DNA of 64,000 bases from Vespertiliibacter pulmonis (GTDB lineage Bacteria > Pseudomonadota > Gammaproteobacteria > Enterobacterales > Pasteurellaceae): assembly GCF_013377275.1 (NCBI RefSeq), contig NZ_CP016615.1:744001-808000 (forward strand). The letters run 5' to 3'. Under the pieces are notes generated by a model. That model worked only from the letters and a program-made list of their open reading frames with translations. It made no database searches and was not told where the DNA came from. Of this stretch, positions 57,566 to 64,000 are shown piece after piece. Each line of letters begins with the position of its first letter. Position 1 is the stretch's first letter. The translations under genes were made by a program, and so were the position numbers.

Positions 57566-59662
57566 ATGATGACCGCATCACAACTTCTTAATAAAGGTAT
57601 TAAATTACTTAAACAAGCCGAATATGACCAAGCTATTTCCAAATTAACACAAGCTTTAGAAAGTATTACCGATACAAATACCGATATTCAATTACAACTT
57701 AATATTCAACATTGGCTCGGACGCTGCTATTTTGAACAGGCCATAAAAAGCCCATTAAATGAAGCTAAACCACTCTTTGAACTAGCGATTGAACACTATA
57801 ATAATTGGCTACAACTAGCCGAAAGCCTTACCACTGAAAATAAAGCCCAAGAGCAAATCAATGCTCAACAAGCCCTCGGATATTGCTATTTCAAACAAGC
57901 CATAAAAAACCCAGAAAATGAAGCTAAACCACTCTTTCAACAAGCAATCACACACCACGAACATCAGCTAAAACTAGCCAAAGAACTTACTACTGAAAAT
58001 AACATTCAACAGCAAATCAATGCTCAATATTGGCTCGGGCGTTGCTATATGGAACAAGCCATAAAAAGCTCATTAAATGAAGCTAAACCACTCTTTCAAC
58101 AAGCAATTGAACATCATAAACATCAGCTAGAACTAGCCAAAAGCCTCACCACTGAAAATAACATTCAACAGCAAATCTATGCTCAAGTCTGGCTCGGACG
58201 TTGCTATCTGGCACAAGCCATAAAAAGCCCGTTAAATGAAGCTAAGCCACTCTTTCAACAAGCAATCACACACCATGAACATCAGCTAGAACTAGCCAAA
58301 AGCCTCACCACTGAAAATAACATTCAAGAACAAATTACTGCTCAAACCTGTCTTGGGCATTGCTATTTAAGCCAAACAATAAAAAACCCAGAAAATGAGG
58401 ATAATTCACTATTTAATAAAGCAATTGAACACTATACTAATTGGTTACAACTAGCTGAAGGGCTCTCAGCTGAAAAGAATGCTCAAGCACAAATAAACGC
58501 TCAAGAATTTCTAGATTATTGCCACTTTGAATTCTCTAATAAATCAAAAAAGTTTGACAGTTATTTTAAATATAAAAAAGAGAAGATTAGCAAGCAACTC
58601 TCCACACACCTACAATCTAATCAATTAAAAAAGCAAATTATTACTATCTTAACAGTATTATCTATTGAGCCTGTTGAATTAAAAAATATCCCATTAGCTC
58701 ACTACACAACGCCTTATGTTGCAGAACTTTTATTTGGACTAAACAAAGCAGAAAATAAACAAGATAGCGAAAAAAATAAAGAAAGTTCTCAGGAATATAT
58801 TCTTAGCCCAATGCGAATGAATAGTGCAACATATATGAATGATCCTTCAGAAGGTAAATCATTATTAGAATTTCTTGATAAGCCTGATATTTCCTTAGAA
58901 AACATTACACAATTTCCAAAAAGAAATGCATTTTTTAGCTGTTTTTCTAGCCGTATCAATGATCTTAACCAATTCCGCTTATATGGTAAGGAAAATCAAA
59001 TAGAAGCTTCAGGGTGCTGTTTAATATTTAATAAAAAAAGAAATTGGTTAAAACAGCCCGATATTCGCCAGAGTTTTTCTTTTTCCGAAAGAGATACTGA
59101 ATTACAAACAGAAAGTATATCTGATACTATATCTAAAAATTATCCCAAACTTCCTCTTTATCAAGTTGCTTATCTTACCTATATGGATAGTTATATTGAT
59201 GAACGGAAATGCACAAAATTTAATAATACAAATTTTGCATTCTGTTTACACCAAGTAGGAAATAATTCTAAATGGCATAAAAAAAGAGAAAAAGAACTGA
59301 AAAAAGCTCTTAATAATTTAAAAGAAAAAATAAAAAGTATAGACAAATTTACTCCAGAACAAGAAGCAGATTTAGAATATATTCGCTATCTTTTTAAAGA
59401 TTTTGCTTTTCGAGATGAAGAAGAATTTCGCTTGTTAAAAATGGCAGAAATTGGCTCTGATGAAATAAAAATTTGTGAGAAAACACAATCTATTTATGTA
59501 GAATATACCGATATTCGCCAAATGGTTGATGAAGTTATTCTCGGTACCAACTACGAAAGGACAGATGAAAAACGCAAAGTGGAAGTTTTCCGTCATAAAA
59601 TGAAACAGCATTTACCAGAAATTAGCGTTGTTCACTCATCATTACCTATCAACTTCCAGTAA
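57566..59662 (+). CDS. TPR-repeat protein with C-terminal DUF2971-like domain, function unknown
   Basis: A 698-residue protein. Residues 5-38 look like a classic TPR (GIKLLKQAEYDQAISKLTQA). Residues 45-309 hold five 53-residue repeats with the pattern I-x-AQ-x2-LG-x-CY...NEAKPLFQQAI...LAK-x-LTTENN, plus a partial sixth. The C-terminal part (about 376-690) resembles DUF2971: LAHYTTPYVAEL, MRMNSATYMNDPSEG, FFSCFSSRINDLNQFRLYG, ASGCCLIF and FRDEEEFRLLKM. This suits a helical sensor arm joined to an effector-like domain, but no activity is proven. The start ATGATG has AAGGAAAT before it. It stands alone between tldD and tonB, more AT-rich and asparagine/lysine-rich than its neighbours, suggesting acquired DNA. 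Confidence 0.65.
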   Translation: MMTASQLLNKGIKLLKQAEYDQAISKLTQALESITDTNTDIQLQLNIQHWLGRCYFEQAIKSPLNEAKPLFELAIEHYNNWLQLAESLTTENKAQEQINAQQALGYCYFKQAIKNPENEAKPLFQQAITHHEHQLKLAKELTTENNIQQQINAQYWLGRCYMEQAIKSSLNEAKPLFQQAIEHHKHQLELAKSLTTENNIQQQIYAQVWLGRCYLAQAIKSPLNEAKPLFQQAITHHEHQLELAKSLTTENNIQEQITAQTCLGHCYLSQTIKNPENEDNSLFNKAIEHYTNWLQLAEGLSAEKNAQAQINAQEFLDYCHFEFSNKSKKFDSYFKYKKEKISKQLSTHLQSNQLKKQIITILTVLSIEPVELKNIPLAHYTTPYVAELLFGLNKAENKQDSEKNKESSQEYILSPMRMNSATYMNDPSEGKSLLEFLDKPDISLENITQFPKRNAFFSCFSSRINDLNQFRLYGKENQIEASGCCLIFNKKRNWLKQPDIRQSFSFSERDTELQTESISDTISKNYPKLPLYQVAYLTYMDSYIDERKCTKFNNTNFAFCLHQVGNNSKWHKKREKELKKALNNLKEKIKSIDKFTPEQEADLEYIRYLFKDFAFRDEEEFRLLKMAEIGSDEIKICEKTQSIYVEYTDIRQMVDEVILGTNYERTDEKRKVEVFRHKMKQHLPEISVVHSSLPINFQ
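57698..58492 (+). repeat. Five tandem 159-bp in-frame repeats
   Basis: Units begin at 57698, 57857, 58016, 58175 and 58334, each 159 bp (53 codons). Units three and four are nearly identical over long runs, for example CTAGAACTAGCCAAAAGCC and ACCACTGAAAATAACATTCA. Copy number can change by recombination without breaking the frame. Confidence 0.85.
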
Positions 59663-59673
59663 ACTCATAAAAC

Positions 59674-59706
59674 TAGCCGCTAATTCTAACGGCTATGCGC
59701 TTTTTT
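59674..59706. terminator. Bidirectional terminator between the TPR gene and tonB
   Basis: TAGCCG (59674-59679) pairs with CGGCTA (59690-59695). A T-run follows on the plus strand (59700-59706) and GTTTT follows on the minus strand. It overlaps the tonB stop codon. Confidence 0.55.
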
Positions 59707-60579
59707 AAACTCTTGAGGGTCAAAACGAATTGGGATTGGCAAAACGAGGCTTGCCCGTTCACGCAAATGTGGAGGCGGTATTGGCAAAGGCGAAGACCGT
59801 TTGACAAGGGCGAGCGTTTCATCATCTAACACAGAAACACCTGTGCTTTTCTTGAGTGTTACATTTAGCACATTGCCTTGTCCATCAATAGTAATAGCGG
59901 TAAAAGCCGTTCCGCCAAGACCGTTATCCATTGCAAATTGTGGATAACGTTGGTTACGGCTTAAATGTGCCATCACTTTCGCTTTCCAATTTTGCGTTAA
60001 ATTGCGATCTTCAGAGATGCTGTTACTCGGTGCGGCATTTTTACTTTCATCACCTTTCGGCGGTGCTGATGCCGTTTGTGAAGACGCACGAGAATTAACA
60101 TTACTGGTACTCTCTTTCATTACGCTTTCTTGGTTAGGTATCTGTTTTTTTGAAGGCTTTTCAGGCAATTTTTTCACCACTTTTTGTGGATTTTGTTTCG
60201 GCTCAACCTTTACTTTTTCTTTCGGTTTTTCCTTCGTTTTCGTCTGTTTTTTTACTACGATTTCGGCTTTTTCAACCTTAGGCGATTCTTCCACAACAAT
60301 TTTAGGTGGCTCTTCAGGCGTAGGTGGCTGCGGCTCACTAGCTGCTGCCGTACTATTCACCGCTATTTCTTGCGGTGGCCCAATCGTAACTGGTTCAATT
60401 TTTGTCGCCGATTGGGGTAATTCAGCAAATTCGACCATCACCGCAGAAAGCGTTAGGGGTTGTTCCACTTGTGTAGCTTTATTGGCTAATGCCCATACCA
60501 ATGATATATGAGCAACTAATACTACAACAAAAGCAACTAGCCATTTTGGCTGTTCAAAAGAAGGTGGGCTAACAATCAT
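59686..60579 (-). CDS. tonB: Energy transducer TonB
   Basis: A 297-residue protein with one N-terminal membrane anchor (LVAFVVVLVAHISLVWALA), a Pro/Glu- and Lys-rich periplasmic spacer (EPQPPTPEEPPK; residues about 75-150) and a C-terminal TonB domain (about 205-297: RNQRYPQFAMDNGLGGTAF, LVLPIPIRFDP). It carries proton-motive energy to outer-membrane receptors. Its start overlaps exbD by ATGA. The exbB-exbD-tonB order is the same as in H. influenzae. Confidence 0.93.
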   Translation of the reverse strand: MIVSPPSFEQPKWLVAFVVVLVAHISLVWALANKATQVEQPLTLSAVMVEFAELPQSATKIEPVTIGPPQEIAVNSTAAASEPQPPTPEEPPKIVVEESPKVEKAEIVVKKQTKTKEKPKEKVKVEPKQNPQKVVKKLPEKPSKKQIPNQESVMKESTSNVNSRASSQTASAPPKGDESKNAAPSNSISEDRNLTQNWKAKVMAHLSRNQRYPQFAMDNGLGGTAFTAITIDGQGNVLNVTLKKSTGVSVLDDETLALVKRSSPLPIPPPHLRERASLVLPIPIRFDPQEFKKAHSR

Positions 60580-60998
60580 TTTTCCGCCTGATTACCGTCT
60601 TCCAAACCGACTAAACCAATTTTCAAATAGCCCCCTTGACGTAAACGGCTAATCACTTGCAGTAAACTTTCATAATTAACCTCTTTATCCGCTTGGAAAA
60701 AGATGACGGTCTCTAAATTACGTTCCGTTTTTACATTCAATAATTCGACTAAGTTTTCTTCTGCTATCGATTCATCACCTAAAAAAAGTTGTTTCTCTTT
60801 ATTCAGAGAAAGAATAAGCGGTTTATCCGTTGGTGGTGTTGGCTGTTCCTGAGCAACTGGCAGATCAAGGGGAACGGTTACGGTGGTTAATGGCACGGTA
60901 ACCATAAAAATAATCAGCAAAACTAACATCACATCAATAAACGGGGTAACGTTGATTTCACTTAGCTCTTGATCCTGCTCGGACGGTAAATTCGTCAT
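60576..60998 (-). CDS. exbD: Biopolymer transport protein ExbD
   Basis: A 140-residue single-pass membrane protein. The membrane segment FIDVMLVLLIIFMVTVPL contains the essential aspartate that conducts protons, and PLDLPVAQEQP leads into the periplasmic domain. It overlaps exbB upstream and tonB downstream, each by ATGA, so the three are translationally coupled. Confidence 0.95.
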   Translation of the reverse strand: MTNLPSEQDQELSEINVTPFIDVMLVLLIIFMVTVPLTTVTVPLDLPVAQEQPTPPTDKPLILSLNKEKQLFLGDESIAEENLVELLNVKTERNLETVIFFQADKEVNYESLLQVISRLRQGGYLKIGLVGLEDGNQAEK

Positions 60999-61786
60999 TT
61001 TTCCCCCTTAGTAGATAATCGATTAAGTGAAATATCTCGTTTAACCATTAGTCGTAACATTGCAACTAAATTACCAACTAACGTGCCATAATAGCTCACA
61101 TAACGGGTAAAATAGTTATACATCATTACCGCTGGAATTGCCGCTACCAATCCTAATGCCGTTGCAAATAAAGCCTCTGCAATTCCTGGGGCAACCACCG
61201 CCAAATTGGTGCTTTTCGCATTTACAATGCCGATAAAGCTATTCATTATGCCCCACACCGTTCCAAATAAGCCAATAAAAGGGGCAACCGAGCCAATTGT
61301 AGCTAATACACCAATGCCATAGCGAATACGATATACCCAATGTTGAATTTGACGCTCTAAACGGTAATCAACTCGATCAGTAAACGCCTCATCACATTGC
61401 TGTTGTGAGCGTTCCATCTCATCACGCACTTCGCTAAATAGACTGAGCGTAATACTATTTTTAGCAAAAACAGAAGAAGAATTATTCAATTCAGCTAAAG
61501 ATGATTGTTGCTGTAATTGTTTTTGTTCTTTATTTAATTGATGAATTCCACGGCGAAACTGCACAATTTTAAAGACGAAAATTGTCCAAGTAATAACCGA
61601 ACAAAGCAATAATATAACTAACACCCCTTTCACCACAGGGTGAGCATTTTGATACATTGCTTGAATTGTCATCTCTTGTAACGATTCAACAACCCCACCA
61701 GAAACACTTTCAGGCACTTCTGCATAAAGATTAAGACTAAAAATAGCTAAAACAACAAATATAACCTGTCGAGTAAAAAAAGACAT
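60995..61786 (-). CDS. exbB: Biopolymer transport protein ExbB (with signal-like N-terminus)
   Basis: A 263-residue protein of the MotA/TolQ/ExbB channel family. It has an extra N-terminal signal-like segment (FTRQVIFVVLAIFSLNLYA) ahead of three membrane spans. The channel motif is GVLATIGSVAPFIGLFGTVW and AEALFATALGLVAAIPAVM. The extension is longer than in H. influenzae ExbB (about 150 residues) and resembles the longer ExbB class. It is first in the exbB-exbD-tonB operon. Confidence 0.93.
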   Translation of the reverse strand: MSFFTRQVIFVVLAIFSLNLYAEVPESVSGGVVESLQEMTIQAMYQNAHPVVKGVLVILLLCSVITWTIFVFKIVQFRRGIHQLNKEQKQLQQQSSLAELNNSSSVFAKNSITLSLFSEVRDEMERSQQQCDEAFTDRVDYRLERQIQHWVYRIRYGIGVLATIGSVAPFIGLFGTVWGIMNSFIGIVNAKSTNLAVVAPGIAEALFATALGLVAAIPAVMMYNYFTRYVSYYGTLVGNLVAMLRLMVKRDISLNRLSTKGEK

Positions 61787-61804: not shown

Positions 61805-61863
61805 AACAAGCGGTAAGATTCTCATTGAAATTTGCTTATTTCTAAGAAATCTAACCGCTTGTT
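61805..61863. repeat. Inverted uptake-sequence pair between the lipoprotein gene and exbB
   Basis: AACAAGCGGT (61805-61814) pairs with ACCGCTTGTT (61854-61863) over a 39-base loop. It sits in the 90-bp gap and could reduce read-through from the receptor/lipoprotein genes into exbB. A TTCTCATT within the loop weakly resembles part of a Fur box. Confidence 0.7.
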
Positions 61864-61876
61864 TAAACATTAAAAA

Positions 61877-63184
61877 CTACTTCTGTTCGCCTTTAGAAGC
61901 TTCTGTTTTCGGGGCATCAGCTTTTGTTGCACCGAACATAATACGCTCTTCACCGCCACCAATCTGACCAACAATATTTTCAAGATTTGGGCCTGCAAAT
62001 ACACCGCCGTAGTCAGTTACATCACGTAATTTACCACCAGCTATAATCCCAGCATTGCTATCAACGACACCGTTATGACCGAAGCCAACAACACCATTTT
62101 CTACTTTAATATCAGTTTCTTTCAAAATCAGTGAGCGAGTAGGGTCATTGTGCTCTGGATAATAAATAGGATCATCATTTTTATCCCAACCTTTAGTTAA
62201 ACCAAACGCATTTTTAGTCAGTCCGTCAAAACGGTTTGTCATTTCCCCTTTAATTTTTTTCGTATCAAAATTAACTTCAAAATGAACATCAGCAACAGCT
62301 TCTTGTGTTGGTGTTCCACCTTTTACCCCCCCTTGATAACCAATTGCTTTACCATTGTAGTCAAAAGTACCTTTTTGCTGTGCTAGCTGAGATTCTGTTG
62401 ATAATTTTGCTGTATAAAACGCAAGAGGTTCAATTTTATCAATACTACCATACTGATTAGATGGTTTAGCTGATACAAAAGTTGCATAACTTGAATAATC
62501 TTGATTTACAAATTGGAACTTACCTAATACTGTGCCATCAGTATCTGTAATCTCAAGATGTTGAACCTTGTTCGAATCAAGCTCACCATTTTTTAAGAAA
62601 TCTCTATCATATTGCAACTCTGAGTTATCTAATTTTACTGCTTTACCGCCTTTTGATAATACAATAGGGCCTGAAGAGTAATAAACGCCTTCTTTTCCAG
62701 CCAATTTAGTAGGTTCATATTTATAACCACCATCATTTGAACTAATTACCTCATAATGACGCCAAGCTAATTTTTGCTCTTTAACTTTTTGCTCAGCTTC
62801 CAAACGTGCTTTTTCTGCATCTTCTTTTGCTTTGTCCGCTTCTAAACGCACATTTTCTTCTAACTCTTTTGCCCTCTTATCTGTTTCTGCCTTAGTTTTC
62901 TCAGCCTCTACACGAGCTTTTTCTGCTTCTTGTTTTGCCTTTTCAGCTTCTAAATGAGCTTTTTCTGCCTGCTCTTTCACTTGTTTATCCGCTTCTGCTT
63001 TAACTTTTTCTGCCTCTGCACGCTCATGAGCAATTTTTTCTTTTGCTTTTTGCTCTTCTTGTTTAGCTTTATCTGCAACGTGATCTGGTGAATAAGATGA
63101 GCCACTTGAAGAACAACCAACAAGAGCAACAGCTAATACACTTGCCATTAAGGTTGGAACAAAACGATATTGTGTTACTTTCAT
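61877..63184 (-). CDS. Surface lipoprotein with long coiled coil and TbpB-like C-terminal barrel
   Basis: A 435-residue lipoprotein: lipobox VALVGC (Cys24), a short linker, then about 100 residues (38-138) of charged Ala/Glu/Lys heptads (AEKAKQEAEKARVEAEK), predicted coiled coil. Residues about 140-425 are beta-rich and end with GGVFAGPNLENIVG and ERIMFGATK, which resembles the barrel lobes of TbpB/HpuA-type, Slam-exported surface lipoproteins. The upstream gene is a TonB-dependent receptor, so it is probably the co-receptor. The ligand (haem, haemoglobin or transferrin) cannot be decided. A coiled-coil stalk is unusual in this group. Confidence 0.65.
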   Translation of the reverse strand: MKVTQYRFVPTLMASVLAVALVGCSSSGSSYSPDHVADKAKQEEQKAKEKIAHERAEAEKVKAEADKQVKEQAEKAHLEAEKAKQEAEKARVEAEKTKAETDKRAKELEENVRLEADKAKEDAEKARLEAEQKVKEQKLAWRHYEVISSNDGGYKYEPTKLAGKEGVYYSSGPIVLSKGGKAVKLDNSELQYDRDFLKNGELDSNKVQHLEITDTDGTVLGKFQFVNQDYSSYATFVSAKPSNQYGSIDKIEPLAFYTAKLSTESQLAQQKGTFDYNGKAIGYQGGVKGGTPTQEAVADVHFEVNFDTKKIKGEMTNRFDGLTKNAFGLTKGWDKNDDPIYYPEHNDPTRSLILKETDIKVENGVVGFGHNGVVDSNAGIIAGGKLRDVTDYGGVFAGPNLENIVGQIGGGEERIMFGATKADAPKTEASKGEQK

Positions 63185-63207
63185 AATATTTCCTTTAAGT
63201 TAAAAAA

Positions 63208-64000
63208 TTAAAAACGAATCTCTGCACCAACTAAATATGTCCGTCCACGTGCCGCATTACTAAATGAATAAACATAATTATCATTAGAATCAACCCCAGT
63301 TAATTGGGAAGATGTTGAATTTAATGAGTTAAGTGCATCGACATAATTACGGTTCATCAGATTTTGAACCGACATTTTTAACAACACGTTTTTATTAAGT
63401 TGGTATGTTGTGTAAAAATCTATGATGATAGGCATTTTCGGCAGCTCTTGTAATAAATCAGAGTCTTCTACTTGTAGCCCACTAGGTAAATAACGTTTTG
63501 ATCTGCCCGTATATTTAAAGGTAGAACCAAGCTCCAGCTTTTTATCTAATAAACGACCACCAAGCGTTAATGTCGCTGTATGCTTCGGCATTTCTGTTAC
63601 ACTTGTAGTACCAAAACCTGTACTAACCGTTGCAGTAACATCAGGTGGTAATTGTGATTTTTGATAAGAGTAGGCTAAATTCGCAAATACAAAACCCGCA
63701 TCGTAATTGAAGTCTAATTCAACGCCTCGATGGTTTAATTTGTCTAGAGCATTACGATACATTTGTGCATGGAAAGAAGGTAAAACATCATCTGTTAATT
63801 TATTTGTTAAACCAATATTTGGATCCATATAGAATGAATCGCTATAAATTTCATCTTTCATTTGGCGTTGATAGCCGACTAATTTAATACCTAAGAAATC
63901 ATCATTTACCCATACATTTTCTTTTTTAGTATTAAAACCTACTTCAACAGTGCGAGCATATTCTGGTTTTAAGAATGGATTCATTGAACCAGCGCCCTCA
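63208..64000 (-). CDS. TonB-dependent outer-membrane receptor (C-terminal part)
   Basis: The reading frame is open to the right edge; about 263 C-terminal residues are visible. They form the last strands of a 22-strand barrel: EGAGSMNPFLKPEYARTVEV at the start (the family's NPxLKPE...E-x-G motif), GVELDFNYDAGFVFANLAY, and LKMSVQNLMNRNYVDAL with the C-terminal EIRF ending in phenylalanine. The NL-x-N-x-xYVD region is typical of haem, haemoglobin and siderophore receptors. It is followed after 23 bases by the lipoprotein gene and then exbB-exbD-tonB. Plug domain and ligand are outside the window. Confidence 0.88.
   Translation of the reverse strand, partial: EGAGSMNPFLKPEYARTVEVGFNTKKENVWVNDDFLGIKLVGYQRQMKDEIYSDSFYMDPNIGLTNKLTDDVLPSFHAQMYRNALDKLNHRGVELDFNYDAGFVFANLAYSYQKSQLPPDVTATVSTGFGTTSVTEMPKHTATLTLGGRLLDKKLELGSTFKYTGRSKRYLPSGLQVEDSDLLQELPKMPIIIDFYTTYQLNKNVLLKMSVQNLMNRNYVDALNSLNSTSSQLTGVDSNDNYVYSFSNAARGRTYLVGAEIRF

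Follow-up and report, generated by a model that had tools for sequence, protein, structure and literature searches.

Introduction

What does a TonB-dependent receptor bring into the cell, and what does a stalked surface lipoprotein encoded beside it add? The question is raised by an operon at one end of the stretch of DNA that we analyzed (hereafter the window: 64,000 nucleotides, positions 744001-808000 of the complete 1.83-Mb genome of Vespertiliibacter pulmonis, Pasteurellaceae). The genus had no second species among the genomes compared. The original prediction, made from the sequence without database searches, described a TbpB-like, coiled-coil lipoprotein and a receptor served by a private ExbB-ExbD-TonB set, and suggested a new host-iron piracy system, in which the stalk might lift the binding domain beyond capsule or lipooligosaccharide.

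We consider it likely that the operon takes up haem through a receptor of the HasR/TdfH branch, aided by an accessory, stalked, Slam-type lipoprotein co-receptor. Such an operon would be a bipartite haem receptor in a family, the Pasteurellaceae, whose known receptor-lipoprotein pairs serve mainly the uptake of transferrin iron. Fold, conservation, and the linkage of the genes all support the general design put forward in the original prediction: a bipartite system, energized by TonB, in which the partner is a surface lipoprotein of Slam type.

Organization of the operon

Gene names drawn from Pfam and NCBIfam bear out the predicted minus-strand order of receptor, lipoprotein, exbB, exbD, and tonB, with the energizer genes just left of the receptor-lipoprotein segment (Table 1); exbB, exbD, and tonB all pass curated cut-offs (3 of 3). 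The window edge cuts the receptor gene, which when complete encodes 771 aa and runs to window-equivalent position 65523 (genome C1:807208-809523). Outside the window, 18 bp upstream of the receptor, lies a gene for a ChaN-family lipoprotein (276 aa; PF04187, 126 bits). The intergenic gaps are 23 bp (receptor-lipoprotein), 90 bp (lipoprotein-exbB), and -4 bp for both exbB-exbD and exbD-tonB. The 3' end of tonB is convergent with a plus-strand gene at 57566-59662, whose 698-aa product carries highly similar TPR-like repeats with weak Pfam TPR matches.

Table 1. Features of the operon, in window coordinates.
Feature	Position	Strand	Remarks
TonB-dependent receptor, C-terminal third	63208..64000	-	cut by window edge
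Surface lipoprotein, 435 aa: lipobox signal peptide, then helical stalk, then lobe of handle and 8-stranded barrel	61877..63184	-	
Lipoprotein signal peptide LAVALVGCSSSG	63113..63184	-	lipobox VGC, Cys at residue 24
Ala/Glu/Lys helical stalk, residues 44-139	62768..63055	-	AlphaFold2 helix; periodicity and charge analysis
Imperfect tandem repeat building most of the stalk, 108 bp (36 codons), 2.2 copies	62788..63022	-	TRF
Handle and beta-barrel core, Slam-cargo fold, residues 160-422	61919..62707	-	fold comparison
Hairpin between lipoprotein and exbB, inverted ACAAGCGGT pair	61805..61863	-	fold -24.9 kcal/mol, z -4.8
exbB	60995..61786	-	TIGR02797, 241 bits, above cut-off
exbD	60576..60998	-	TIGR02803, 154.6 bits, above cut-off
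tonB	59686..60579	-	TIGR01352 tonB_Cterm, 51.8 bits, above cut-off

The hairpin between the lipoprotein gene and exbB is a possible attenuator, and expression of the energizer genes could be lower than that of both surface proteins. Its repeated element, ACAAGCGGT, which we take to be the uptake-signal type of the Pasteurellaceae branch that includes Actinobacillus pleuropneumoniae, has 26 copies in the 64-kb window; AAGTGCGGT has none there. Upstream of chaN, the match to the Fur box is 12/19, a score that 64% of shuffles also reach. Good Fur-like sites occur elsewhere, at chaN of Spirabiliibacterium falconis (16/19) and at the haem ABC operon of the V. pulmonis genome (15/19).

Fold and family of the lipoprotein

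Beyond its stalk, the lipoprotein is predicted to form a single lobe with the Slam-cargo fold. A Foldseek search with this lobe placed fHbp at the top, followed by the TbpB C-lobe, haemophilin, and LbpB. VIA-align superpositions, which span about 183-200 residues, gave Z-scores of 17.6 for fHbp, 14.8 and 14.7 for haemophilin (6om5 and 8glo), 14.2 for TbpB, and 13.4 for HpuA (5ee4). By sequence, the lipoprotein falls under the cut-offs of Pfam TbpB_B_D (19.7 bits against 26) and NCBIfam slam_lipo (21.6 bits against 80), so its family call rests on fold. Against the PDB, the lobe sequence alone had no credible match, and the lobe profile retrieved TbpB entries only. The label "TbpB-like" proved too specific: the protein has one lobe and is structurally nearer to fHbp, haemophilin, and HpuA than to the two-lobe TbpB. 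A two-lobe TbpB-type lipoprotein was ruled out, the lobe at residues 160-422 being the only one.

Fold likeness does not carry function. A surface-tethered haemophilin would strip haem from the host and hand it to the receptor, like an HphA that is never released; we regard this as an unlikely account of the lipoprotein. The lobe has the handle and 8-stranded barrel of haemophilins, matches two of their structures at the Z-scores given above, and is linked to a haem receptor. The haemophilin systems themselves (Acinetobacter HphA-HphR, Xenorhabdus Hrp, and Haemophilus haemolyticus Hpl) likewise set a Slam-cargo fold beside a TonB-dependent haem receptor, with a tonB at the Xenorhabdus locus as here, and one of the groups in a 2025 survey, named "haemophilin-like 2", is mostly lipidated (PMC12282271). 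The haemophilin cargoes of those systems, however, are soluble, whereas the protein here has a lipobox and a stalk; fHbp is closer in fold, and the profile search of the PDB returned TbpB and no haemophilin. In A. baumannii HphA, the haem ligands are the histidines H43 and H106 (PMC8560813), but the lobe has no conserved His column among 11 intact orthologues. The lipobox Cys24 is invariant in the same 11. Given the lack of a conserved His in the lobe, a haemophilin-like haemophore is the less likely role, and we infer that a protein-binding co-receptor is likelier.

The window receptor is 71% identical to that of the nearest relative, and the lipoprotein core 48%; of the two proteins, the lipoprotein is the faster-evolving. 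Its barrel part contains an in-frame run of 7 G (62326-62332, encoding YQGGVKGG); the window has just one other run of this kind.

Export and energization

The lipoprotein is probably a Slam/T11SS cargo: it has a lipobox signal peptide and, by fold, a C-terminal TbpB_B_D-type barrel, and Slam is encoded in the genome. No slam gene is linked to the locus; the two in the V. pulmonis genome lie elsewhere. At least one Slam was found in each of the 12 carrier genomes searched, and in 4 genomes (two Ursidibacter species and two species of genus g33) slam follows the receptor. The two V. pulmonis Slams do not group with these locus-linked Slams of Ursidibacter and g33.

As for the "private" energizer, the linkage stands, but the genome also encodes a second ExbD-TonB set (343.7-344.9 kb) and three TonB-dependent receptors, the operon receptor and two others. 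A third ExbD-like protein may be TolR. Energization dedicated to the operon receptor is plausible.

The helical stalk

The predicted stretch of about 100 Ala/Glu/Lys residues before the barrel is present, these three residues making up 67% of residues 34-139. AlphaFold2 gives one unbroken helix over residues 44-139 (96 residues), which would be about 14 nm long if straight, at 0.15 nm per residue. Self-similarity at 7 and 14 residues agrees with the heptads of the original prediction, but the dominant period is 3.6 and not 3.5: hydrophobic periodicity is strongest at 3.6 residues (a value reached by 0.0005 of shuffles) and is not significant at 3.5 (21% of shuffles). Self-identity peaks at a lag of 36 residues (50%), above the weaker peaks at lags 7 and 14, and this 36-residue protein repeat derives from a 108-bp DNA unit detected by TRF. 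Local heptads are thus embedded in an overall organization of 36-residue blocks, each of ten helical turns.

Given the period of 3.6, the low share of LIVMF residues (only 11%), and the excess of oppositely charged i/i+3 and i/i+4 pairs (53 observed against ~32 expected), a classical coiled coil accounts for the stalk no better than a single charged helix does.

Relatives, spacers, and probable accessory status

Of 140 Pasteurellaceae genomes searched with the lobe profile, 15, from 9 genera, encode a full-length relative; named carriers include Spirabiliibacterium, Testudinibacter, Nicoletella semolina, Ursidibacter, Bibersteinia trehalosi, and one metagenome-assembled Pasteurellaceae genome. 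In the loci inspected whole, the lipoprotein gene is accompanied by a receptor gene of this type and by one resembling chaN; chaN was confirmed with Pfam in the window locus and in five stand-alone loci, and recognized by eye elsewhere. The exbB-exbD-tonB genes adjoin in most relatives' loci, Spirabiliibacterium and Bibersteinia excepted.

The receptor is more widespread than its partner. At E below 1e-160, the receptor profile matched ~30 of the 140 Pasteurellaceae genomes, and in half of these no relative of the lipoprotein was detected. Five stand-alone loci that we read in other Pasteurellaceae genomes consist of chaN and receptor with no lipoprotein, followed in 1 of the 5 by a haem ABC operon. 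The receptor therefore seems able to work alone in other genera, and the lipoprotein looks like an accessory co-receptor added to it. It is in this respect comparable to HphA of A. baumannii, which enhances uptake and is not strictly required (PMC8560813). A receptor search at E 1e-90 across a thin sample of 369 genomes of the class found it in the V. pulmonis genome only, a weak hint that the receptor subfamily may be confined to the Pasteurellaceae.

The stalk had been presented as unfamiliar, a view that the relatives do not sustain. Helical, proline-rich, and Ser/Asn-rich spacers alternate between lipobox and lobe: the spacer is proline-rich in Testudinibacter (PKSEEP repeats) and Spirabiliibacterium, built of Ser/Asn/Gln repeats in Ursidibacter maritimus, a short linker in the nearest relative (the metagenome-assembled Pasteurellaceae bacterium), and helix-like in Bibersteinia, where it resembles the window stalk. 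In the lobe tree, the window protein pairs with the short-linker protein (98/96) and Bibersteinia falls in the other deep clade, so helical stalks were probably acquired or swapped more than once. Helical-repeat regions before the handle domain have also been described by Grossman et al. 2025 (PMC12282271), who report Slam-dependent surface display of Pls of Haemophilus parahaemolyticus in E. coli co-expressing TepS. Pls, a T11SS/Slam cargo that is lipidated and has helical repeats ahead of its barrel, resembles in this the protein studied here, a putative cargo of the same kind; it differs in being an adhesin-like surface protein with no tie to a haem receptor operon (PMC12282271). With Pls published and the relatives' spacers so varied, the helical stalk as such is neither new nor a hallmark of the system. 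V. pulmonis itself encodes two other TbpB_B_D lipoproteins with repeats: one with KAAAE repeats beside the slam at 560 kb (L010:5144-6820), and one with a long PKVEA repeat array at 1.263 Mb (L009:7000-8319).

In two species of genus g33, the lipoprotein orthologue carries a poly-G tract just after the lipobox, of 7 G (L027:7484, G032) and 10 G (L072:8322, G163). Both lipoprotein genes are off-frame, and the receptor gene is open. Judged from these genome sequences, the tract probably reflects phase variation of the lipoprotein, with sequencing error as a possible alternative; phase variation of hpuAB is on record.

The same genomes bear on a further reading, in which the lipoprotein serves immune evasion in the manner of fHbp and merely shares an operon with a monopartite haem receptor. 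A lobe whose top fold match is fHbp, a sequence that changes faster than the receptor's, and a gene shifted off-frame beside an open receptor gene are what such a protein might display. Yet the lipoprotein sits beside this receptor type in all loci inspected, across 9 genera, and the resemblance to fHbp is one of fold, which does not carry function; we judge immune evasion to be improbable, and retain the co-receptor as the preferred role.

The receptor and its likely cargo

The complete receptor classifies with HasR and TdfH. It matches Pfam TonB_dep_Rec_b-barrel and scores 254 bits against the TIGR01785 haem receptor family, below the cut-off of 316.85. Its best solved relative is TdfH (9oaa; E 2.6e-84), with HasR of Serratia, a haemophore receptor, second (E 1e-31 with the single sequence; 4.6e-51 with a profile, over HasR residues 91-708, plug and barrel). 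The AlphaFold model of the receptor, for which a relative's sequence served as proxy, was poor (pLDDT 53.7), so the assignment rests on sequence; a fold search with the model served only to name 9oaa. A transferrin-type receptor was rejected (TIGR01776, 44.8 bits against a cut-off of 468.8).

In the plug, H139 aligns with HasR residue 189, with modest alignment confidence around the gap that TdfH shows at this His-containing segment. H139 is invariant in 13/13 orthologues with the locus and in 5/5 stand-alone receptors. We take H189 and H603 to be the two haem ligands of HasR, and H139 is a candidate haem ligand of the receptor. HasR differs in two respects. The site aligned with H603, a loop residue flanked in HasR by FRAP- and NPNL-type motifs, is not conserved here, holding Gly or another residue, and the HasA haemophore of HasR is unrelated to the lipoprotein; the operon has no HasA-type partner, the partner gene encoding instead a Slam-cargo-type lipoprotein.

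Haem ABC genes accompany the locus in several relatives. Against an NCBIfam cut-off of 261 bits, the adjoining haem ABC ATPase scores 328 in Ursidibacter, 332 in Bibersteinia, and 263 in Testudinibacter, and 253, just under the cut-off, in Spirabiliibacterium; an HmuV-type ATPase above the cut-off also adjoins the locus in genome G066. The haem-type ABC transporter of V. pulmonis is unlinked, at ~1.29 Mb (ATPase 330 bits). The HasR/TdfH branch, the retained H189 position, the adjacent chaN, and the haem ABC genes beside relatives' loci together make haem very probably the receptor's cargo, which weakens the case for a new host-iron piracy system. Elsewhere in the genome, another receptor scores above the TIGR01786 haemoglobin/transferrin/lactoferrin cut-off.

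Zinc is a highly improbable cargo, and a scheme of import from calprotectin with an added lipoprotein is likewise very unlikely: the closest solved relative, the gonococcal calprotectin-zinc importer TdfH (TdfH/CbpA of Neisseria), has no lipoprotein partner (PMC6965322) and a gap where the receptors studied here keep an invariant plug His segment, the locus has ChaN and haem ABC genes for company, and the V. pulmonis genome has a separate ZnuD-like receptor at 129 kb.

Proposed mechanism and comparison with known systems

In the haem-uptake mechanism that we propose, haem would be taken up by the outer-membrane receptor of the HasR/TdfH branch, with energy supplied by the co-encoded ExbB-ExbD-TonB; the linkage is observed, and exclusivity forms no part of the proposal. 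The product of the gene just before the receptor's, ChaN, probably deals with haem at the membrane, and the haem-type ABC transporter at ~1.29 Mb, matched by family, may import it across the inner membrane. The lipoprotein would be lipidated and then, as its fold suggests, flipped to the surface by a Slam, one of the two encoded away from the locus. There, in the manner of HpuA with HpuB, it may keep a host protein that carries haem close to the receptor, with the helical stalk as a spacer that would set the reach of the binding lobe. More tentatively, a chaN-receptor operon might have recruited a Slam-type lipoprotein, its reach past the cell coat tuned by an exchangeable spacer (helical, proline-rich, Ser/Asn-rich, or short) and its expression switched by poly-G in at least one genus, and come to carry its own energizer.

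For HpuA-HpuB, the haemoglobin receptor of Neisseriaceae, one operon likewise encodes a TonB-dependent haem receptor and a surface lipoprotein with a single lobe of this fold; the long helical stalk and the linked exbB-exbD-tonB and chaN set the present locus apart. The receptor here is nearest HasR/TdfH among solved structures, a comparison that HpuB lies outside. Linkage of energizer genes to a receptor-lipoprotein pair is also seen in tonB1-exbB1-exbD1 with tbpB-tbpA of Actinobacillus pleuropneumoniae, which differs in being a transferrin system with a two-lobe TbpB (PMC1832192).

Nature here offers a comparison set, with the same receptor found with and without the lipoprotein and the same lobe carried on very different spacers. 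What single-lobe co-receptors add to haem receptors, and why their spacers vary, are both now directly testable. Surface lipoproteins of this kind are considered as vaccine antigens in veterinary pathogens, a use on which the phase-off lipoprotein copies in one genus bear.

Some loci among the relatives depart from the common layout. In Spirabiliibacterium mucosae (L030:7208-10681), receptor and lipoprotein are each split over two frames, through decay or assembly error. Between chaN and receptor, a further gene is present in Spirabiliibacterium (L029:5236-7299) and Testudinibacter (L033:5205-7358); that of Spirabiliibacterium falconis encodes a prolyl-oligopeptidase family (S9) protein, a protease that could possibly help to free haem from host protein.
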